IMG/VR virus record: IMGVR_UViG_3300050821_005417 | Coordinates: 1-20,804 of that record | Length of the DNA: 20,804 bases | Direction: 5' to 3' (one strand) | Source: a virus | Shown: piece after piece, positions 3,778-19,605 of the stretch | How the letters are laid out: each line of letters begins with the position of its first letter | How positions within the stretch are numbered: the stretch's first letter is position 1 | Notes under the pieces: model-generated | What the model was told of the DNA's origin: nothing | The model's database searches: none | What the model saw: only the letters and a program-made list of their open reading frames with translations | Position numbers and translations under genes: made by a program

Positions 3778-3854
3778 TCGTGTTGACATTGGCTGCCATC
3801 GCAGTCTGTGCGGTCTTGATTGTTTGGGAATTTATTAACGAGGTTTTGACGTGA
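3738..3854 (+). CDS. 38-residue single-pass membrane peptide
   Basis: Starts at ATG 3738 after GAGGCAGG and ends in a TGA that overlaps the GTG start of the TadE-like gene. Residues 11-30 form one strong transmembrane helix (EAMIVLTLAAIAVCAVLIVW) flanked by charged residues. It has the size and shape of other tiny phage membrane proteins; a holin is possible, but one helix and no lysin next door make that weak. Its place directly before a pseudopilin-like gene suggests a shared envelope role. Confidence 0.5.
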   Translation: MWKRISDLFVEAMIVLTLAAIAVCAVLIVWEFINEVLT

Positions 3855-4249
3855 AAATCACAAAACGACTGAAAGATGAAAGAGGGCAGGCGATTCTGGA
3901 GGCAGCGGTCATGCTACCAGTGTTGATTTTTGTAGCACTGGCAATGATCGACATCCAGGTTGCCGAAAGTACAGCAGGAAGTCTGAACTACGTGGTCACT
4001 GAGGCAGCGCGTTGCGAAGCGATTGCAGGACTGCCGTGCAATTCTCCGAACAATGCCGGCCTCTACGCGAATCAACTGGCTTACAATCTCAGACTTCGGA
4101 ACGGATTCACGGTCGCATCTTACGGATGCGATGTGTTGTCCGGCTCATGCACGATGGTTGCTTCGTACTCGTACAAGCCGCTCGGCGTGTGGTTTCCGCA
4201 GATGATAATCACGCGAACGGGGACGGCTTCACTCAAGACTGGAGGGTAA
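3851..4249 (+). CDS. TadE-like pseudopilin-type protein
   Basis: 132-residue protein with the N-terminal signature of the TadE family, minor pseudopilins of the tight-adherence (Tad) pilus. The charged start (KITKRLKDE) is followed by RGQAILEAAVMLPVLIF, a hydrophobic helix to about residue 35. Gly12 with Glu17 five residues on matches the prepilin-peptidase pattern G|xxxxE, and the later VVTEAARCEA fits the conserved helix after the membrane segment. Four cysteines in the C-terminal half (including GLPC, YGCD and GSC) could form disulfides outside the cell. The GTG start overlaps the previous stop. No other tad genes are visible. Phage carriage of TadE is unusual. Family call good from the N-terminus; the rest is not diagnostic. 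Confidence 0.72.
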   Translation: MKITKRLKDERGQAILEAAVMLPVLIFVALAMIDIQVAESTAGSLNYVVTEAARCEAIAGLPCNSPNNAGLYANQLAYNLRLRNGFTVASYGCDVLSGSCTMVASYSYKPLGVWFPQMIITRTGTASLKTGG

Positions 4250-8875: not shown

Positions 8876-9133
8876 ATGAAGAAATGCACGGCACTGCTGA
8901 TTCTCGCGCTTAGTATCAAGGCTTCAGCGGTGGACCAGAAATCGTTGCTGCTAGGCATTGGAATCGGTTTAGGCATGTCGGCCTATCAGGGAACGCGAAG
9001 CAAGGTATTGTTGCCAACCGCGCATTTTATTCAGCGCACGGTGCGACCGATACCACAGGACAAGATCGAAAAAGCAAAGAGAAAGGCGGCGAAGGCGGCG
9101 CGGAAGCGGGTTGGTACGCCAGTAGCTGAGTGA
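8876..9133 (+). CDS. small unknown protein with signal peptide
   Basis: 85-residue protein starting [18 protein letters not shown], a good Sec-type signal peptide with likely cleavage after ASA, then a second short hydrophobic Gly-rich stretch ([14 protein letters not shown]) and a very basic tail ([16 protein letters not shown]). The tail could bind nucleic acid or anionic lipids. Its stop overlaps a GTG in the cold-shock frame. Function unknown. Confidence 0.6.
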
Positions 9134-9144
9134 AAGCGGAGCAC

Positions 9145-9363
9145 ATGGAAGGTACGCGCATCACAGGAACTGTAGCGTGGTTTAACGGGGCCAAGGGATA
9201 CGGATTCATCCGATGGCAGGGTGGTAGAGACGTATTCGTTCACTTTTCAGCAATTCAAATGGACGGCTACAAGGATCTCAAAGAGAATGACGAAGTTGAG
9301 TTCGAGGTAACGGACGGCCCCAAGGGCAAGCAAGCTGCGAATGTTCGACGGCTGGAAGATTGA
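9145..9363 (+). CDS. csp: cold-shock domain protein
   Basis: 72-residue single cold-shock domain protein, the usual CspA length. It shows the canonical start [19 protein letters not shown] containing RNP1 (KGYGFI), RNP2 as DVFVHFSAI, and the closing [17 protein letters not shown]. It would bind single-stranded RNA or DNA and melt structure in transcripts. ATG 9145 is chosen over GTG 9130 because CGGAG sits just upstream and cold-shock proteins start close to this point. Phages sometimes carry csp genes; here it sits among small accessory genes. Its end abuts the next gene by 1 nt. Confidence 0.93.
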
Positions 9364-13396: not shown

Positions 13397-13572
13397 AACT
13401 GGGATGGAAGATGGCGCTAAGGGATGCCGAGGAAGGCATTAAGAGAGCAAGCCGGGAACTAGCGGACTGGAAGGCTGTGGCTGCGATATGCCGCAGGAGA
13501 GTAGCGCAGCGAGCTGCATGGCCTGGTGAGGTTGCGATAGTGCATAAGGAGAAGGGCAAGGAGAAACCATAA
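13393..13572 (+). CDS. small basic protein
   Basis: 59-residue basic, helical protein with its ATG overlapping the terL stop (ATGA) and its TAA overlapping the next ATG (TAATG). It reads KLGWKMALRDAEEGIKRASR, then AICRRRVAQRAAW, and ends in Lys/Glu repeats. Its high Arg/Lys content suggests nucleic-acid contact. The two tight junctions make it credible. Function unknown. Confidence 0.55.
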   Translation: MKLGWKMALRDAEEGIKRASRELADWKAVAAICRRRVAQRAAWPGEVAIVHKEKGKEKP

Positions 13573-15542
13573 TGCGAGCGTTCAGGTGGGCAGCTTTAAT
13601 TATTCTACTGACATCAATCGCGACGGCGCAGCAAGTTCCGGCAACGATGTTTGGGATGAACGTGCATCCGCAGGTTATCGCCACGCGGAACGCGATACCT
13701 TGGCCGACGATTCCAATCGGCGCATTTCGTTTCTGGGGAACTGAGACAACGTGGAGTGCCATGAATCCCTCGAACGGCGTGTACAACTTCGACACGATGG
13801 ATGCATGGTTTGCAGCGGCGGCAAAGAATGGCGTGACGGATTTCCTGTACACATTTGGCGAGACGCCGGCATGGGCTGCTGGACCTCCGATGACTCAATC
13901 ATGCGACCACTACCCAGGATCGTGCAACGCGCCCAAGGATCTGAATGCGGACGGCACGGGGCCAGATCAAATCTGGAAGGACTTCGTTACGGCAGTTGTG
14001 AAGCACGCGAACGGACGTATCAAGTATTGGGAAGTGTGGAACGAACCCGACATCGGAATCGAGTGGACGCCGACGAATCCGCAGATGCCCTACGCACAAC
14101 TGATTCGCATGGCAAAGGACGCTTACGCAATCATCAAGGCGAATTGTCCGACTTGCCAAGTAACTACGCCGTGCCCGGTCGATTCAGGGAAGGGCCAGAC
14201 TATCGGCAATTGGCTACCTAGCTATGTGAAGGCGGGCGGCCTGCAATATGCGGACATCATCGCATTTCACGGCTACATTGATTCGGCACTCGGCCAGAAG
14301 CCCGAAGCGGAAGCGGGAAAGGTGGCGACGATCAAAGTGGCGATTGGAAACAGTCCCAAACCGATATGGGACACGGAAGGCAATTGGGGTAACGATAGCG
14401 GATTGCCGAACGCGCAACTGCAGGCTGCATATCTTGCACGGATGTATCTCATGCAATGGTCGGTCAGCGTGCAAAGATTCTACTGGTGGCAGTACGGGAA
14501 TTCAGAGATGGGTACGCTTGTCACTAACGGGACGCTAACCTCATCCGGCACAGCCTATGCAGAACTCAATAAATGGATCGTTGGCAGCACGATGACCAAG
14601 CCGTGTATGAACACAGGAACGGTCTGGACTTGCAGTTTCCATATGGCGAACGGCGTTCAGTCGATGATCGTGTGGGACGCTGGACAGACTTGCGCTACCA
14701 CAAACTGTGGGCAAACGCAGTGGAGTTATCCGGTAGGCTACACGGCGTCAGCTACGCTGGCGGGAGTGAACGCGAAACTTAGCGGTGGCAAAGTGGGGAT
14801 TGGTGCGGCGCCGATTCTCCTCATGGGCAGCACTCCGTTGGGCAACTTCCCGCGGAATGCATCAAAGGCCAGCGGTGGGCAAAAGAAAGTTCTCTTCATC
14901 AATAAGGCATCTCATTCACAGGCAAAAGCGAGTGTTGCAAAAACCGCTGCAAGTGGACCGGATATTGTTAACCTTTCGTGGATATGCTCCACGTCATCGA
15001 ATGCGCTCAGTTACAACGTCTATCGCAACACAGCCTCGACTGGCGCATTTACTTTAATCGGCAGCACGGGTACGAATGCGTGCGCCTACACCGACTCTGC
15101 AACGGCCTACGGTGCGAGTTATTACTATGCGGTGACTGCATCGAATGTGGCAGCTGGTGCTTCATGTCCAACAGGACAGACTTGCGAGAGTAGTCAAGAT
15201 GGACCTGTGGGACCAGCCGTGATTCCTGGGCCACCTCCGCCTCCAGTTCCAAACCCTCCGACCGGATTGCAGATCGTTTCAATTGTCGCGAAGAATGTGA
15301 CGCTCAAATGGAACGCGCCAGCCGCGCAAGCAGGAGTGACGGAGGTTTCGGCGAACGTTTACATGTGTCACGAGTCAACTTGTCCAGCGCCACCGCTAGT
15401 CGCGACTGTGACGGGGACGACATACACCGGGAACTGCAATTACTCAACTCGGCAGTGCTGGTTCATTGTGAAAGAGAACACAATCATTGCTGGCAAGAAA
15501 GTGTTGAGTGCGGCGTCGAATACCGTGGCCGCAAAAGTGTGA
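13572..15542 (+). CDS. secreted glycoside hydrolase (clan GH-A-like) with fibronectin-like domains
   Basis: 656-residue protein with a Sec signal peptide (residues 1-19, ending ATA) and a TIM-barrel glycoside hydrolase of the retaining GH-A kind, closest in feel to GH39/GH5-like enzymes. YWEVWNEPD gives the acid/base Glu158 and IWDTEGNWG the nucleophile Glu269; RFWGTETTW and AFHGY (His233) fit substrate-site strands. About 111 residues separate the two glutamates. After the barrel come fibronectin type III-like segments (about 460-525 and 565-656), separated by a Pro-rich linker (GPPPPPVPNPP). Substrate cannot be read from sequence; plant or microbial cell-wall polysaccharide is likely. It sits in the packaging-head module between terL and portal and has a good ribosome site (AAGGAG, 13558-13563). 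It may be a virion-associated depolymerase or an auxiliary metabolic gene. Many cysteines suggest extracellular disulfides. Confidence 0.8.
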   Translation: MRAFRWAALIILLTSIATAQQVPATMFGMNVHPQVIATRNAIPWPTIPIGAFRFWGTETTWSAMNPSNGVYNFDTMDAWFAAAAKNGVTDFLYTFGETPAWAAGPPMTQSCDHYPGSCNAPKDLNADGTGPDQIWKDFVTAVVKHANGRIKYWEVWNEPDIGIEWTPTNPQMPYAQLIRMAKDAYAIIKANCPTCQVTTPCPVDSGKGQTIGNWLPSYVKAGGLQYADIIAFHGYIDSALGQKPEAEAGKVATIKVAIGNSPKPIWDTEGNWGNDSGLPNAQLQAAYLARMYLMQWSVSVQRFYWWQYGNSEMGTLVTNGTLTSSGTAYAELNKWIVGSTMTKPCMNTGTVWTCSFHMANGVQSMIVWDAGQTCATTNCGQTQWSYPVGYTASATLAGVNAKLSGGKVGIGAAPILLMGSTPLGNFPRNASKASGGQKKVLFINKASHSQAKASVAKTAASGPDIVNLSWICSTSSNALSYNVYRNTASTGAFTLIGSTGTNACAYTDSATAYGASYYYAVTASNVAAGASCPTGQTCESSQDGPVGPAVIPGPPPPPVPNPPTGLQIVSIVAKNVTLKWNAPAAQAGVTEVSANVYMCHESTCPAPPLVATVTGTTYTGNCNYSTRQCWFIVKENTIIAGKKVLSAASNTVAAKV

Positions 15543-16531: not shown

Positions 16532-18256
16532 ATGGCGCGAGGTTTAGTCCAAGACGGGTTCGGCAAGGCGACTCCAATCAGCCGTGGCTTGTTTGAGCGG
16601 TTCACGGACGGAGTGAACGCGCAAATTTCCAGCTTGGACCCGATGGCATGGATGGGGCCGTCGCAACCGATGGCGAGAGTTGCGCCGCGCGGAACGCAGC
16701 CTAGAATCTATGATTACCGCTTCGGACAGAACATCGACTACACGCCAAAGGCGTTTGAAGGTTATTGCTACGAGGTTCTGCGTGACCTCGCAGATGGCTA
16801 CAGTCTGCTTCGTTCGGTAATTGAAACACGCAAGGATCAAGTATCGCGGGTGCCGCACAGTTTCAGTGTCAGAACGTTGCCGGGTGAGCCGCCAAGCAAA
16901 AAGAAGGAACGGCAACTTAACGACAAGCGCATCGCGAAGTTGGAAGACTTTTGGTCAAAGCCGGACGGGCAGCATAGCTTTTCGGACTGGCAACGGCTCA
17001 TCCTCGAAGACCTGTTTGTCATTGATGCGGCCTCGATTGTTCCGAGATGGCGGAGGGATGGCGGAGTCTACGGCTTCGACGTGATTGATGGAGCCACGAT
17101 CAGTCTGTTGGTCGATGAAACTGGTCGTTCGCCGATGCCTCCCGACCCGGCCTATCGGCAGATCATCAAAGGAATGCCAGCGGTGGACATGATGATCCCG
17201 ACAGCGTCCATCAAGAAGTCGGACGCACTGTTCTTTTACCCGCGGAACGTGAGGCCGTCAAGACTCTACGGCTTCTCGCCAACCGAGCAGCTCGTACTTA
17301 TTGTGAACATCGCGCTACGCCGTCAGATGCATCAGCTTCAGTGGTATACGGATGGGACAATCCCCGACGTATTTCTCGAAGCACCAGATGGATTAAGCGA
17401 AGAACGCATGACGCAGTTCGAGGCGATCTGGAATGAAAAGTTCGCCACAACGCAAGCGCGGCGCAAAGCGAACTTCGTGCCCTTTGGAACCAAGGTCACC
17501 TTCGCAAAAGACCCGAAGCTGAAAGACGAGATGGACGAGTATCTTGCACGCATGGTCGCGTACTGTTTTAGCGTTTCGCCGACAGCATTAGTCAAGACCA
17601 CGAACCGCGCAACGAGTCAGCAGTTGAGCGACGATGCAAGGGCAGAAGGCCTTGAACCGATTCTGTCTTGGTTCAAAGAGATCATGGACGATTTGCTTGC
17701 GTTCATGGGCTGCGCGGATATTGAGTATGAACTCGGGTCGAGCAATCGCGAGAATCCGCTAGTTCAGGCCCAAGTTTGGCAGATTCTTTTGAGCACGGTG
17801 GATGACCAAGGCCACAGCCCGATGCGGGCGCCAGAAGTCCGAGAAGAGTTGGGCTTGGAGCCCATCGACTACGAAGCTGAGGACGACGCGGCATTTGCGA
17901 AAGGTCTTGACCAGCAGAGCCAGCGCAATGCACTTCAGGCTGACAATCAGGAAGACATGATGAGGCGGCAGCAGCAAGTGCAGCACGCCGACGAGCCGCG
18001 ACCGAAGGCGGCACGGCTGGCAGAATGTCCGCTCTGTCGCAGCGGGATGAAAGTTGTAGGGCATAGCGGCGATACCGTGATGGGACCGCACCATGTAGAC
18101 ACAGACGGCACGGAATTGCTTTGCTATGCAACGCAAAAGGTACTCGGGACTCGTGCTCTAAAAAAAAAGTCTCAAAGCCTACACGCTACCGCGTCGAATC
18201 GGGCTCTCGTAGCGAACGGCATACACAGGCCTTTGTCCGCACGTCGAACTTACTGA
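16532..18256 (+). CDS. phage portal protein
   Basis: 574-residue portal that would form the dodecameric ring at the capsid vertex through which DNA is packaged. Typical features: an N-terminal clip of basic/Pro segments, YSLLRSVIETRKDQVSRVPH (early wing helix), the core ILEDLFVIDAASIVPRWRRD, the FFYPRNVRPSRLYGFSPTEQ segment that is characteristic of HK97-like portals, the helix IALRRQMHQLQWYTDGTIPD, and a C-terminal crown with Glu/Gln-rich helices. A good AAAAGGA site precedes the ATG. The tail is odd: a Cys/His cluster (CPLC near residue 498, then HH and a further Cys) and a run of nine A at 18160-18168, after which the frame codes only 28 residues with no portal-like character. The downstream MuF ORF is in the -1 frame, so a fused product is possible. 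Confidence 0.92.
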   Translation: MARGLVQDGFGKATPISRGLFERFTDGVNAQISSLDPMAWMGPSQPMARVAPRGTQPRIYDYRFGQNIDYTPKAFEGYCYEVLRDLADGYSLLRSVIETRKDQVSRVPHSFSVRTLPGEPPSKKKERQLNDKRIAKLEDFWSKPDGQHSFSDWQRLILEDLFVIDAASIVPRWRRDGGVYGFDVIDGATISLLVDETGRSPMPPDPAYRQIIKGMPAVDMMIPTASIKKSDALFFYPRNVRPSRLYGFSPTEQLVLIVNIALRRQMHQLQWYTDGTIPDVFLEAPDGLSEERMTQFEAIWNEKFATTQARRKANFVPFGTKVTFAKDPKLKDEMDEYLARMVAYCFSVSPTALVKTTNRATSQQLSDDARAEGLEPILSWFKEIMDDLLAFMGCADIEYELGSSNRENPLVQAQVWQILLSTVDDQGHSPMRAPEVREELGLEPIDYEAEDDAAFAKGLDQQSQRNALQADNQEDMMRRQQQVQHADEPRPKAARLAECPLCRSGMKVVGHSGDTVMGPHHVDTDGTELLCYATQKVLGTRALKKKSQSLHATASNRALVANGIHRPLSARRTY

Positions 18257-19605
18257 GGCGGTTCTTTAAGCGGTGCCAGGCGAAGCTGGTGGCGATTGCA
18301 AAGGAAGTCCCATCGCTTGCAGAGATACCAGAGGGATGGCACTTCTACGATCCCGAGAGCGGGGCGGAGTTGCCGAAGGTAGCTGCTGCGGACTTGCAAC
18401 GTGATCAGAGCCACATGGCTTGTGCGATGATTCGATTGCCAGAGGCTATCGCAGACGAAGTACTGGCGAAAGCAGCAACGCTGATTGCGGACGAGGATGT
18501 GACGGGCAAGGGACGTGAGGGCGAACCGCACATCACGTTAAAGTACGGGGTTAGAGAGAACGTAGGAGAGACGGCAGAAGCCCTCGCCGAGTTCTACCCC
18601 TTCGAGGTTGAGTTAGGCAAGACGGGAGTGTTCGCTCCAAACCAGAACACCGGAGGCGCGGCAGTAGTTTACGTGGAAGCAATCGCGCCAATCCTGAAAG
18701 AGTTGCACTCTAAGTTGAGCGACAGCATAGGCGTGCGGCACGATGGAGCGGATTACGTTCCGCATGTCACGTTAGCTTACGTGGACGCATCAAAGGCCGA
18801 CAATTACGATGGCTTAGATTCTTTCGCAGGCATGAAGTTCACTGCGAACGCAATTACGATCACGCGGGCCGAAGGGAAAGACTGGACCTTTGACTTGGGC
18901 GGTGCGAGTCTCGTATCCAAGGCTGGAGGCGACGAAGAGGACGAGGATATCGAGGAAATCATTCTCGACATCCTCAAAGGTTTCCAGGAAATCGTGCCTG
19001 CAATGCAACACGAATTGGAAGGCACGTATCTGGACCAGGCACGGCAGATGTCAACGGAGATGGAGAGCACGGTTCAGTTGTCAGTGCTGAATCAGCGGGC
19101 GTTGGATTACGCAAGAGCGCGTGCCGCTGAGATGGTCGGCATGAAGTGGGTAGAAGGCGAACTTGTCACGAACCCTAACGCGGTGTGGGCCATCACGGAC
19201 ACGACGCGGGATGTACTGAAGGATCTGATTACCAACGCCTTCACGCAAGGCCAGACGCCAGCGGAGTTGACGAGTTCGATTGAGCAGACGGGAATCTTTA
19301 GTGCGTGGCGTGCGGATATGATCGCATCGACTGAGATGTCCAAGGCAACGATTCAAGGTTCGTTGTCAACGGCCAAGGATGTTGGGGCGATTGGTAAGCA
19401 GTGGGAAACCAGTGGTGACCACGATCACGACGACGAGTGCGATGGAAATGAAGACGATGGAGTCATTGCGATTGAGGATAGTTTTAGCAGCGGGGATGAT
19501 GGACCGCCAGCGCACCCGTCTTGCAATTGCTCTCTGGTCTATATAACGGCAGACGATCCCGAGACCGCAGACCTACTGGAGCCAGAAACGGTGGAAGCGG
19601 AATAA
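18121..19605 (+). CDS. MuF-like head protein with embedded 2H phosphoesterase domain
   Basis: The frame is open across the end of the portal; the left coordinate is the furthest upstream possible start (TTG), and neither it nor a GTG at 18289 has a convincing ribosome site, so frameshifted translation from the portal is likely. The protein has two parts. First (about 18410-18915), a 2H phosphoesterase / LigT-like domain: two histidine motifs, HITLKYG and HVTLAYV, about 80 residues apart, act on 2',3'-cyclic or 2'-5' phosphodiester bonds. Second, a MuF-type head morphogenesis domain (about 18950-19560) with helices YARARAAEMVGMKW, TTRDVLKDLI, ADMIASTEMSKA, and the closing HPSCNCS motif. The acidic tract GDHDHDDECDGNEDDG near the end is unusual. 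MuF proteins assemble beside the portal and can be ejected with the DNA. Confidence 0.82.
   Translation: MLCNAKGTRDSCSKKKVSKPTRYRVESGSRSERHTQAFVRTSNLLRRFFKRCQAKLVAIAKEVPSLAEIPEGWHFYDPESGAELPKVAAADLQRDQSHMACAMIRLPEAIADEVLAKAATLIADEDVTGKGREGEPHITLKYGVRENVGETAEALAEFYPFEVELGKTGVFAPNQNTGGAAVVYVEAIAPILKELHSKLSDSIGVRHDGADYVPHVTLAYVDASKADNYDGLDSFAGMKFTANAITITRAEGKDWTFDLGGASLVSKAGGDEEDEDIEEIILDILKGFQEIVPAMQHELEGTYLDQARQMSTEMESTVQLSVLNQRALDYARARAAEMVGMKWVEGELVTNPNAVWAITDTTRDVLKDLITNAFTQGQTPAELTSSIEQTGIFSAWRADMIASTEMSKATIQGSLSTAKDVGAIGKQWETSGDHDHDDECDGNEDDGVIAIEDSFSSGDDGPPAHPSCNCSLVYITADDPETADLLEPETVEAE
18160..18214 (+). promoter_or_regulatory. A9 slippery site with downstream stem (candidate -1 frameshift)
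   Basis: In the portal frame the codons are CTA AAA AAA AAG (18158-18169), giving the A-AAA-AAG slippery heptamer. A -1 slip moves ribosomes from the portal frame into the MuF ORF. CGCTAC (18184-18189) pairs with GTAGCG (18209-18214) and could act as stimulator 14 nt downstream, slightly farther than the usual 5-9 nt. A homopolymer error in the assembly is the main alternative. Confidence 0.5.

Follow-up and report, generated by a model that had tools for sequence, protein, structure and literature searches.

We analyzed the portal/MuF junction of a virus represented by a 20,804-base IMG/VR record, the whole of which is referred to below as the window. Terminase genes lie 5' of the portal ORF, and the junction comprises the following features:

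16532..18256, + strand: portal protein ORF encoding the short product (574 codons); Pfam Phage_portal, E 1.8e-14; phrog_2662 positions 13-458 of 717, E 1.6e-50
18067..19605, + strand: MuF ORF, from stop to stop, in the -1 frame relative to the portal; coding evidence starts at the A run
18160..18168, + strand: A9 run, the putative slippage site, with in-phase A_AAA_AAA (18160-18166) and A_AAA_AAG (18163-18169)
18170..18256, + strand: dual-frame stretch, in which the 28-codon portal tail overlies the start of the MuF-frame coding sequence; the tail protein is not conserved, the MuF frame is conserved
18184-18189 with 18209-18214, + strand: 6-bp stem, unsupported as an element
18520..18930, + strand: LigT-like 2H phosphoesterase domain of the fusion arm, 3' of the run and 5' of the MuF domain; Pfam 2_5_RNA_ligase2, E 5.8e-11
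19216..19536, + strand: MuF domain; Pfam Phage_Mu_F, E 1.9e-9; the ORF matches phrog_2662 positions 531-709

The portal and MuF halves match the single PHROG profile phrog_2662 in order, as members of that family do, and thus correspond to one chain in other phages. Elsewhere in the window, a 656-residue ORF between the large terminase and the portal (13572-15542) gave weak matches, under the cut-off, to glycosyl hydrolase families 42 and 10, and the phage also encodes a cold-shock domain protein (9130-9363) and a TadE-like protein (3851-4249).

At 18158-18169 the portal frame reads CTA AAA AAA AAG, which places A_AAA_AAG in phase, as a sequence-only reading of this DNA had proposed. The same reading held that a -1 slip at this site enters the frame of a MuF ORF that has no convincing start of its own, and both points were borne out: the -1 frame is open throughout 18067-19605, its only start codon before the run is TTG at 18121, and the next candidate is GTG at 18289. 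The product of such a slip would have a computed length of 1024 residues, in line with the approximately 1020 residues predicted earlier. The run is the only A9 or T9 in the window; 22 of 100 shuffled windows also contained one, so that its mere presence is not rare, and what is rare is its position and conservation. A search for a promoter or a terminator at the junction found neither. The downstream stem put forward in the sequence-only reading can be paired on paper, but it is not supported as an element, since the region folds no better than shuffled sequences (z +0.5) and the stem is absent from the differently folded region of a relative, L003.

Two 102-kb relatives containing the region, L002 and L003, encode MuF proteins with 89% and 80% identity, respectively, to that of the window. 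Both retain the run, the -1 offset, the open MuF frame, and the portal stop, and in each genome the junction run is the sole A9 or T9. A count of A residues in related phages, suggested earlier as a check, gave A9 in L002 and A10 in L003; the latter is due to an edge substitution (the base before the run is A, not T) and leaves the frame relation unchanged. Before the run (18067-18159), the differences between the window and L003 number 4/3/16 at portal codon positions 1/2/3. Past it (18170-18256), the counts are 0/1/14 at positions 1/2/3 of the MuF codons, with 14 of the 15 at third positions. The comparison with L002 gives the same frame-switch picture with few changes. To judge from these substitutions, the run marks the exact point at which selection passes from the portal frame to that of MuF. 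The 28-codon portal tail, which had been described as lacking portal character, changes freely as a protein between the window and L003. Since the MuF frame is unconserved 5' of the run and lacks any start codon in the stretch from the run to the portal stop, the MuF product must be reached via the run. The portal of L002 (1239-4133) also contains an in-frame insert of ~385 residues with a LAGLIDADG_3 domain, probably an intein.

The 2H phosphoesterase domain, which the sequence-only reading had overlooked, keeps both HxT motifs, and these are invariant in 7 sequences. Its structural model (pLDDT 81) was most similar to 4qak_B (Z 15.8) and to E. coli LigT, 5ldm_A (Z 15.7), so the two HxT motifs in the sequence go together with a 2H fold in the model. 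An identity as an Acb1 anti-CBASS nuclease is not supported: the Pfam Acb1 score of 25.9 bits is under the cut-off of 27, and the structural Z of 12.9 compares with 15.8 for the LigT type. PADLOC returned no match for the MuF arm, and the MuF profile gave no convincing match to a solved structure. It has been proposed that enzymes joined to MuF or portal proteins, 2H phosphoesterases included, are effectors delivered with phage DNA (PMC5512222), and the 2H domain of the window is possibly an injected enzyme of this kind.

We further assessed how general the arrangement is by collecting portal loci in scans with the MuF protein, a portal alignment, and four portals. A total of 423 loci were classified, of which 304 were non-redundant by portal sequence. 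Single-ORF portal-MuF fusions, which the earlier reading had suggested looking for in relatives, accounted for 120 loci. MuF lies in the -1 frame in 41 loci, in the +1 frame in 19, and in the same frame after a stop in 3; MuF is missing within 3 kb in 92 loci, and the remainder are cut short by the end of the contig. A runs of at least 9 were found at the junction of 28 of the 41 -1 pairs and 28 of the 120 fusions, compared to 1 of the 19 +1 pairs and 2 of the 92 loci without MuF. Outside the junctions of the surveyed loci, only 4 such runs occur in 2.44 Mb. Because some queries were chosen for carrying runs, the locus proportions are biased and are not population estimates; the contrast between the inside and the outside of junctions is unaffected. 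The split run loci comprise 15 with A9 and 13 with A10, and the fused run loci divide identically. Lengths of 6-8 are nearly absent from the split loci. The distance from the end of the run to the MuF domain is ~310 nt in both classes and 916 nt in the clade of the window, where the 2H domain is inserted. No MuF-frame start lies upstream of the run in 23 of the 28 split run loci, and in 19 of the 28 the run ends in frame with AAG or AAC. Comparison across these loci indicates that the MuF frame is used from the run onward, that run and offset are conserved, and that the arrangement is broadly distributed.

The 13 -1 pairs without a run of at least 9 include L107, with A6 and an in-phase A_AAA_AAG, and L371, with A8; most of the others have overlaps of the ATGA/GTGA type, which by their sequence are ordinary coupling. 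Three related loci (L150, L275, and L276) have start codons immediately 3' of the run, which may reflect ordinary reinitiation. Among related named phages, Strzyga, Polewnik, THSA-485A, MMB025, and Mufasa8 are all single-ORF fusions, and none of the five has the split portal/A run/MuF arrangement; the Thermoanaerobacterium phage THSA-485A is a cultured phage with an A9 run. Several further observations were made in the surveyed loci. In L034 (570-3497), an A10 run joins the portal and an inorganic pyrophosphatase domain into one fusion, and L027 (571-2343) has A9 and no fusion. Loci L190 and L237 are two different run-bearing portal loci on contigs of one Chlorobiaceae genome bin. In L051 (1388-6577), the portal contains a large insert and a weak intein splicing match follows MuF, and L035 (3707-5344) has an intein-like insert within the MuF arm.

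In the fused run loci, the +1 frame reaches a stop at a median of 8 nt past the run, compared to 63 nt in the fusions without a run (p 2.8e-9) and a median of 41.5 nt in heptamer fusions. These early stops are partly driven by the encoded peptide, but the excess persists under synonymous-codon randomisation (p 3e-5). The portal +1 frame likewise stops early in the split loci (p 0.0018). A transcript missing one A would thus terminate quickly in both classes. The portal +1 frame is unreachable by a -1 ribosomal slip.

Based on these results, we propose that the A9 run acts as a conserved site of recoding, through which a single portal gene gives rise to two proteins, most likely by slippage of RNA polymerase, and we assign this reading a probability of roughly 0.6. 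That recoding of one kind or other takes place at the portal/MuF A run is, from the sequence comparisons, highly probable, and polymerase slippage is probably its main route. The run fits this agent in being an A run of about 9 or more within coding sequence, with the shifted frame conserved after it in homologues; in many genomes, selection against A/T runs sets in at a length of nine (Baranov 2005, PMC1088944). The run lengths of 9-10, the lack of RNA structure, the early +1 stops, and the occurrence of both fused and split states all favor polymerase slippage.

The proposal of the sequence-only reading was programmed -1 ribosomal frameshifting on A_AAA_AAG as the source of the fusion. Its central claim, that recoding joins portal and MuF, is strongly supported by the change of frame at the run, by the conservation in divergent relatives, and by the in-frame fusions of related phages. 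The ribosomal mechanism with its stem has weaker support than transcriptional slippage, and we consider it unlikely as the explanation. The heptamer is in phase in the window and its relatives, the in-frame AAG or AAC ending of 19 of the 28 split loci is as ribosomal slipping prefers (although a MuF peptide motif may explain it), and L107 has the in-phase A_AAA_AAG with A6 only. However, ribosomal slipping has no need of runs of 9-10, and the near absence of lengths 6-8 from the split loci speaks against it. No RNA structure was found downstream of the run in the 28 split loci (mean z -0.13), and as a candidate stimulator a Shine-Dalgarno match of at least 4 occurred in 9 of the 28 compared to ~19% of control sites, a weak excess. 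The early stops in the portal +1 frame are also left unexplained. Slipping by the polymerase and by the ribosome are nevertheless compatible with one another.

Ribosomal slipping gains support from the related in-frame fusions, where in-phase heptamers occur at the same place, and part of the family probably uses it. In 36 of the 86 fusions without a run of at least 8, the junction site contains an in-phase X_XXY_YYZ heptamer (A_AAA_AAR, G_GGA_AAR, C_CCA_AAR, and C_CCT_TTC were seen). In-phase heptamers reach 4.4 per kb at the site but 0.2 per kb within the portal body, and out-of-phase heptamers at the site 0.9 per kb; Lys-Lys is encoded as xxA AAA AAR in 17 of 48 cases at the site versus 3 of 126 elsewhere (p 1.7e-8). 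This enrichment makes ribosomal slipping plausible in other branches. A nearby -1-frame stop of the dnaX kind was sought after the heptamers of the single-ORF fusions, and the stops were not closer than in controls (median 68 versus 76), which gives no sign of selection for a short product in these fusions. Both run and heptamer are missing from the remaining 50 fusions, indicating that not every such phage requires two products.

It is very improbable that the run is instead a phase-variable switch, in which replication slippage would toggle the fusion between phage genomes. L027, the lone run-bearing +1 pair, is 99.9% identical to L034, and their runs (A9 and A10) are one A apart; fused and split states are also equally common among the run-bearing loci. 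However, run length is constant within each of about 20 other groups of near-identical run-bearing contigs, and the distribution of fused and split states tracks the portal tree, with 11 changes versus 19.5 in shuffles (a rough count on a FastTree tree). The third frame relation is absent save in L027, which is itself -1 to its own extension, and the length change between the window and L003 is the edge substitution that keeps the frame.

A separate MuF gene with its own start, the overlap being incidental, is more doubtful still: TTG 18121 is in frame and ten or so other -1 pairs have ordinary ATGA/GTGA-type overlaps, but relative to L003 the MuF frame is unconserved before the run and conserved right after it, and many relatives have no start codon there. 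Least credible is the alternative raised in the sequence-only reading, a homopolymer sequencing or assembly error that splits a truly single ORF, because, although one A more would fuse the frames, A9 or A10 recurs at an identical offset in dozens of independent contigs of varied identity, L047 and L166, a contig of a Nitrosomonadales genome, are in agreement, and L026, L037, L285, and L357 have MuF-frame stops just 5' of the run; error is thus excluded as a general cause in the family.

Under polymerase slippage at the A9 run, unslipped reading would produce the free portal with its short tail, and a net -1 slip would lead into the MuF frame and give a portal-2H phosphoesterase-MuF fusion of ~1024 residues. 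RNA polymerase would slip on A9/A10 to yield mRNAs with one A extra or one fewer, the former encoding the fusion and the latter another short portal. Ribosomes may also slip at the in-phase A_AAA_AAG. The portal is a twelve-part ring, and a few fused subunits in it would place MuF inside the head; by arithmetic on this ring, slippage at about 1 in 10 would presumably yield, from one gene, a copy number like that of SPP1 gp7. The latter is present in 1-2 copies per capsid (PMC5576092). The low ratio of fusion to free portal put forward in the sequence-only reading is likewise presumed.

More broadly, there is about an even chance that slippage of RNA polymerase on A9/A10 serves phages as a widespread and old device for dosing MuF and its attached enzymes (2H phosphoesterase in the window, inorganic pyrophosphatase in relatives) into a small number of the twelve subunits of the portal. 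The fused and split DNA states would then be interchangeable, since both give both products, and ribosomal heptamers would replace the run in other lineages. If true, this would explain how one gene places few MuF domains on the portal ring, and enzymes carried with MuF would be dosed by slippage. It would also provide a head-assembly example alongside the known recoding of tail chaperones and coat proteins, and many portal/MuF genes annotated as separate or frameshifted would each be one recoded gene.

In the literature searched, recoding conserved at the junction of portal and MuF does not appear beyond a single prediction, and the searched text of a recoding review (PMC5009743) and of the GeneTack survey (PMC3711429) contains no portal case. 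The prediction concerns Brevibacillus phage Emery (KC595516), for which a slippage join of gp4 and gp5 was predicted and annotated (PMC4168068), a portal-sized gp4 thus being linked to a MuF-like extension. We found T_TTT_TTA in phase near the end of gp4, which has a weak Portal_T4 match. Emery differs from the window in its portal family, in having no A9 run, in the authors' name for the product (head morphogenesis protein), and in being a single phage. The same two domains occur in a single chain in phrog_2662, Arthrobacter phage Sonali, and Microbacterium clusters EA and EB. These proteins, in contrast, use one frame, and some relatives in our set have runs or heptamers whereas others do not. 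The lambda tail chaperone gpG-gpGT and the coat extensions of phages A2 and T3 are phage structural proteins that are likewise made in two lengths by a -1 slip (PMC5009743), although they are other proteins and the mechanism is ribosomal. In the orfA/orfB of IS elements, transcriptional slippage on an A run likewise joins offset frames (PMC1088944), but the product is a transposase rather than a virion protein. Thermus thermophilus dnaX shares with the window an A9 run and has two products made from one gene by transcriptional slippage (PMC1088944). It is a cellular gene in which slippage shortens the product, whereas slippage in the window would lengthen it, and the run-bearing in-frame relatives are closer to dnaX than the window is.
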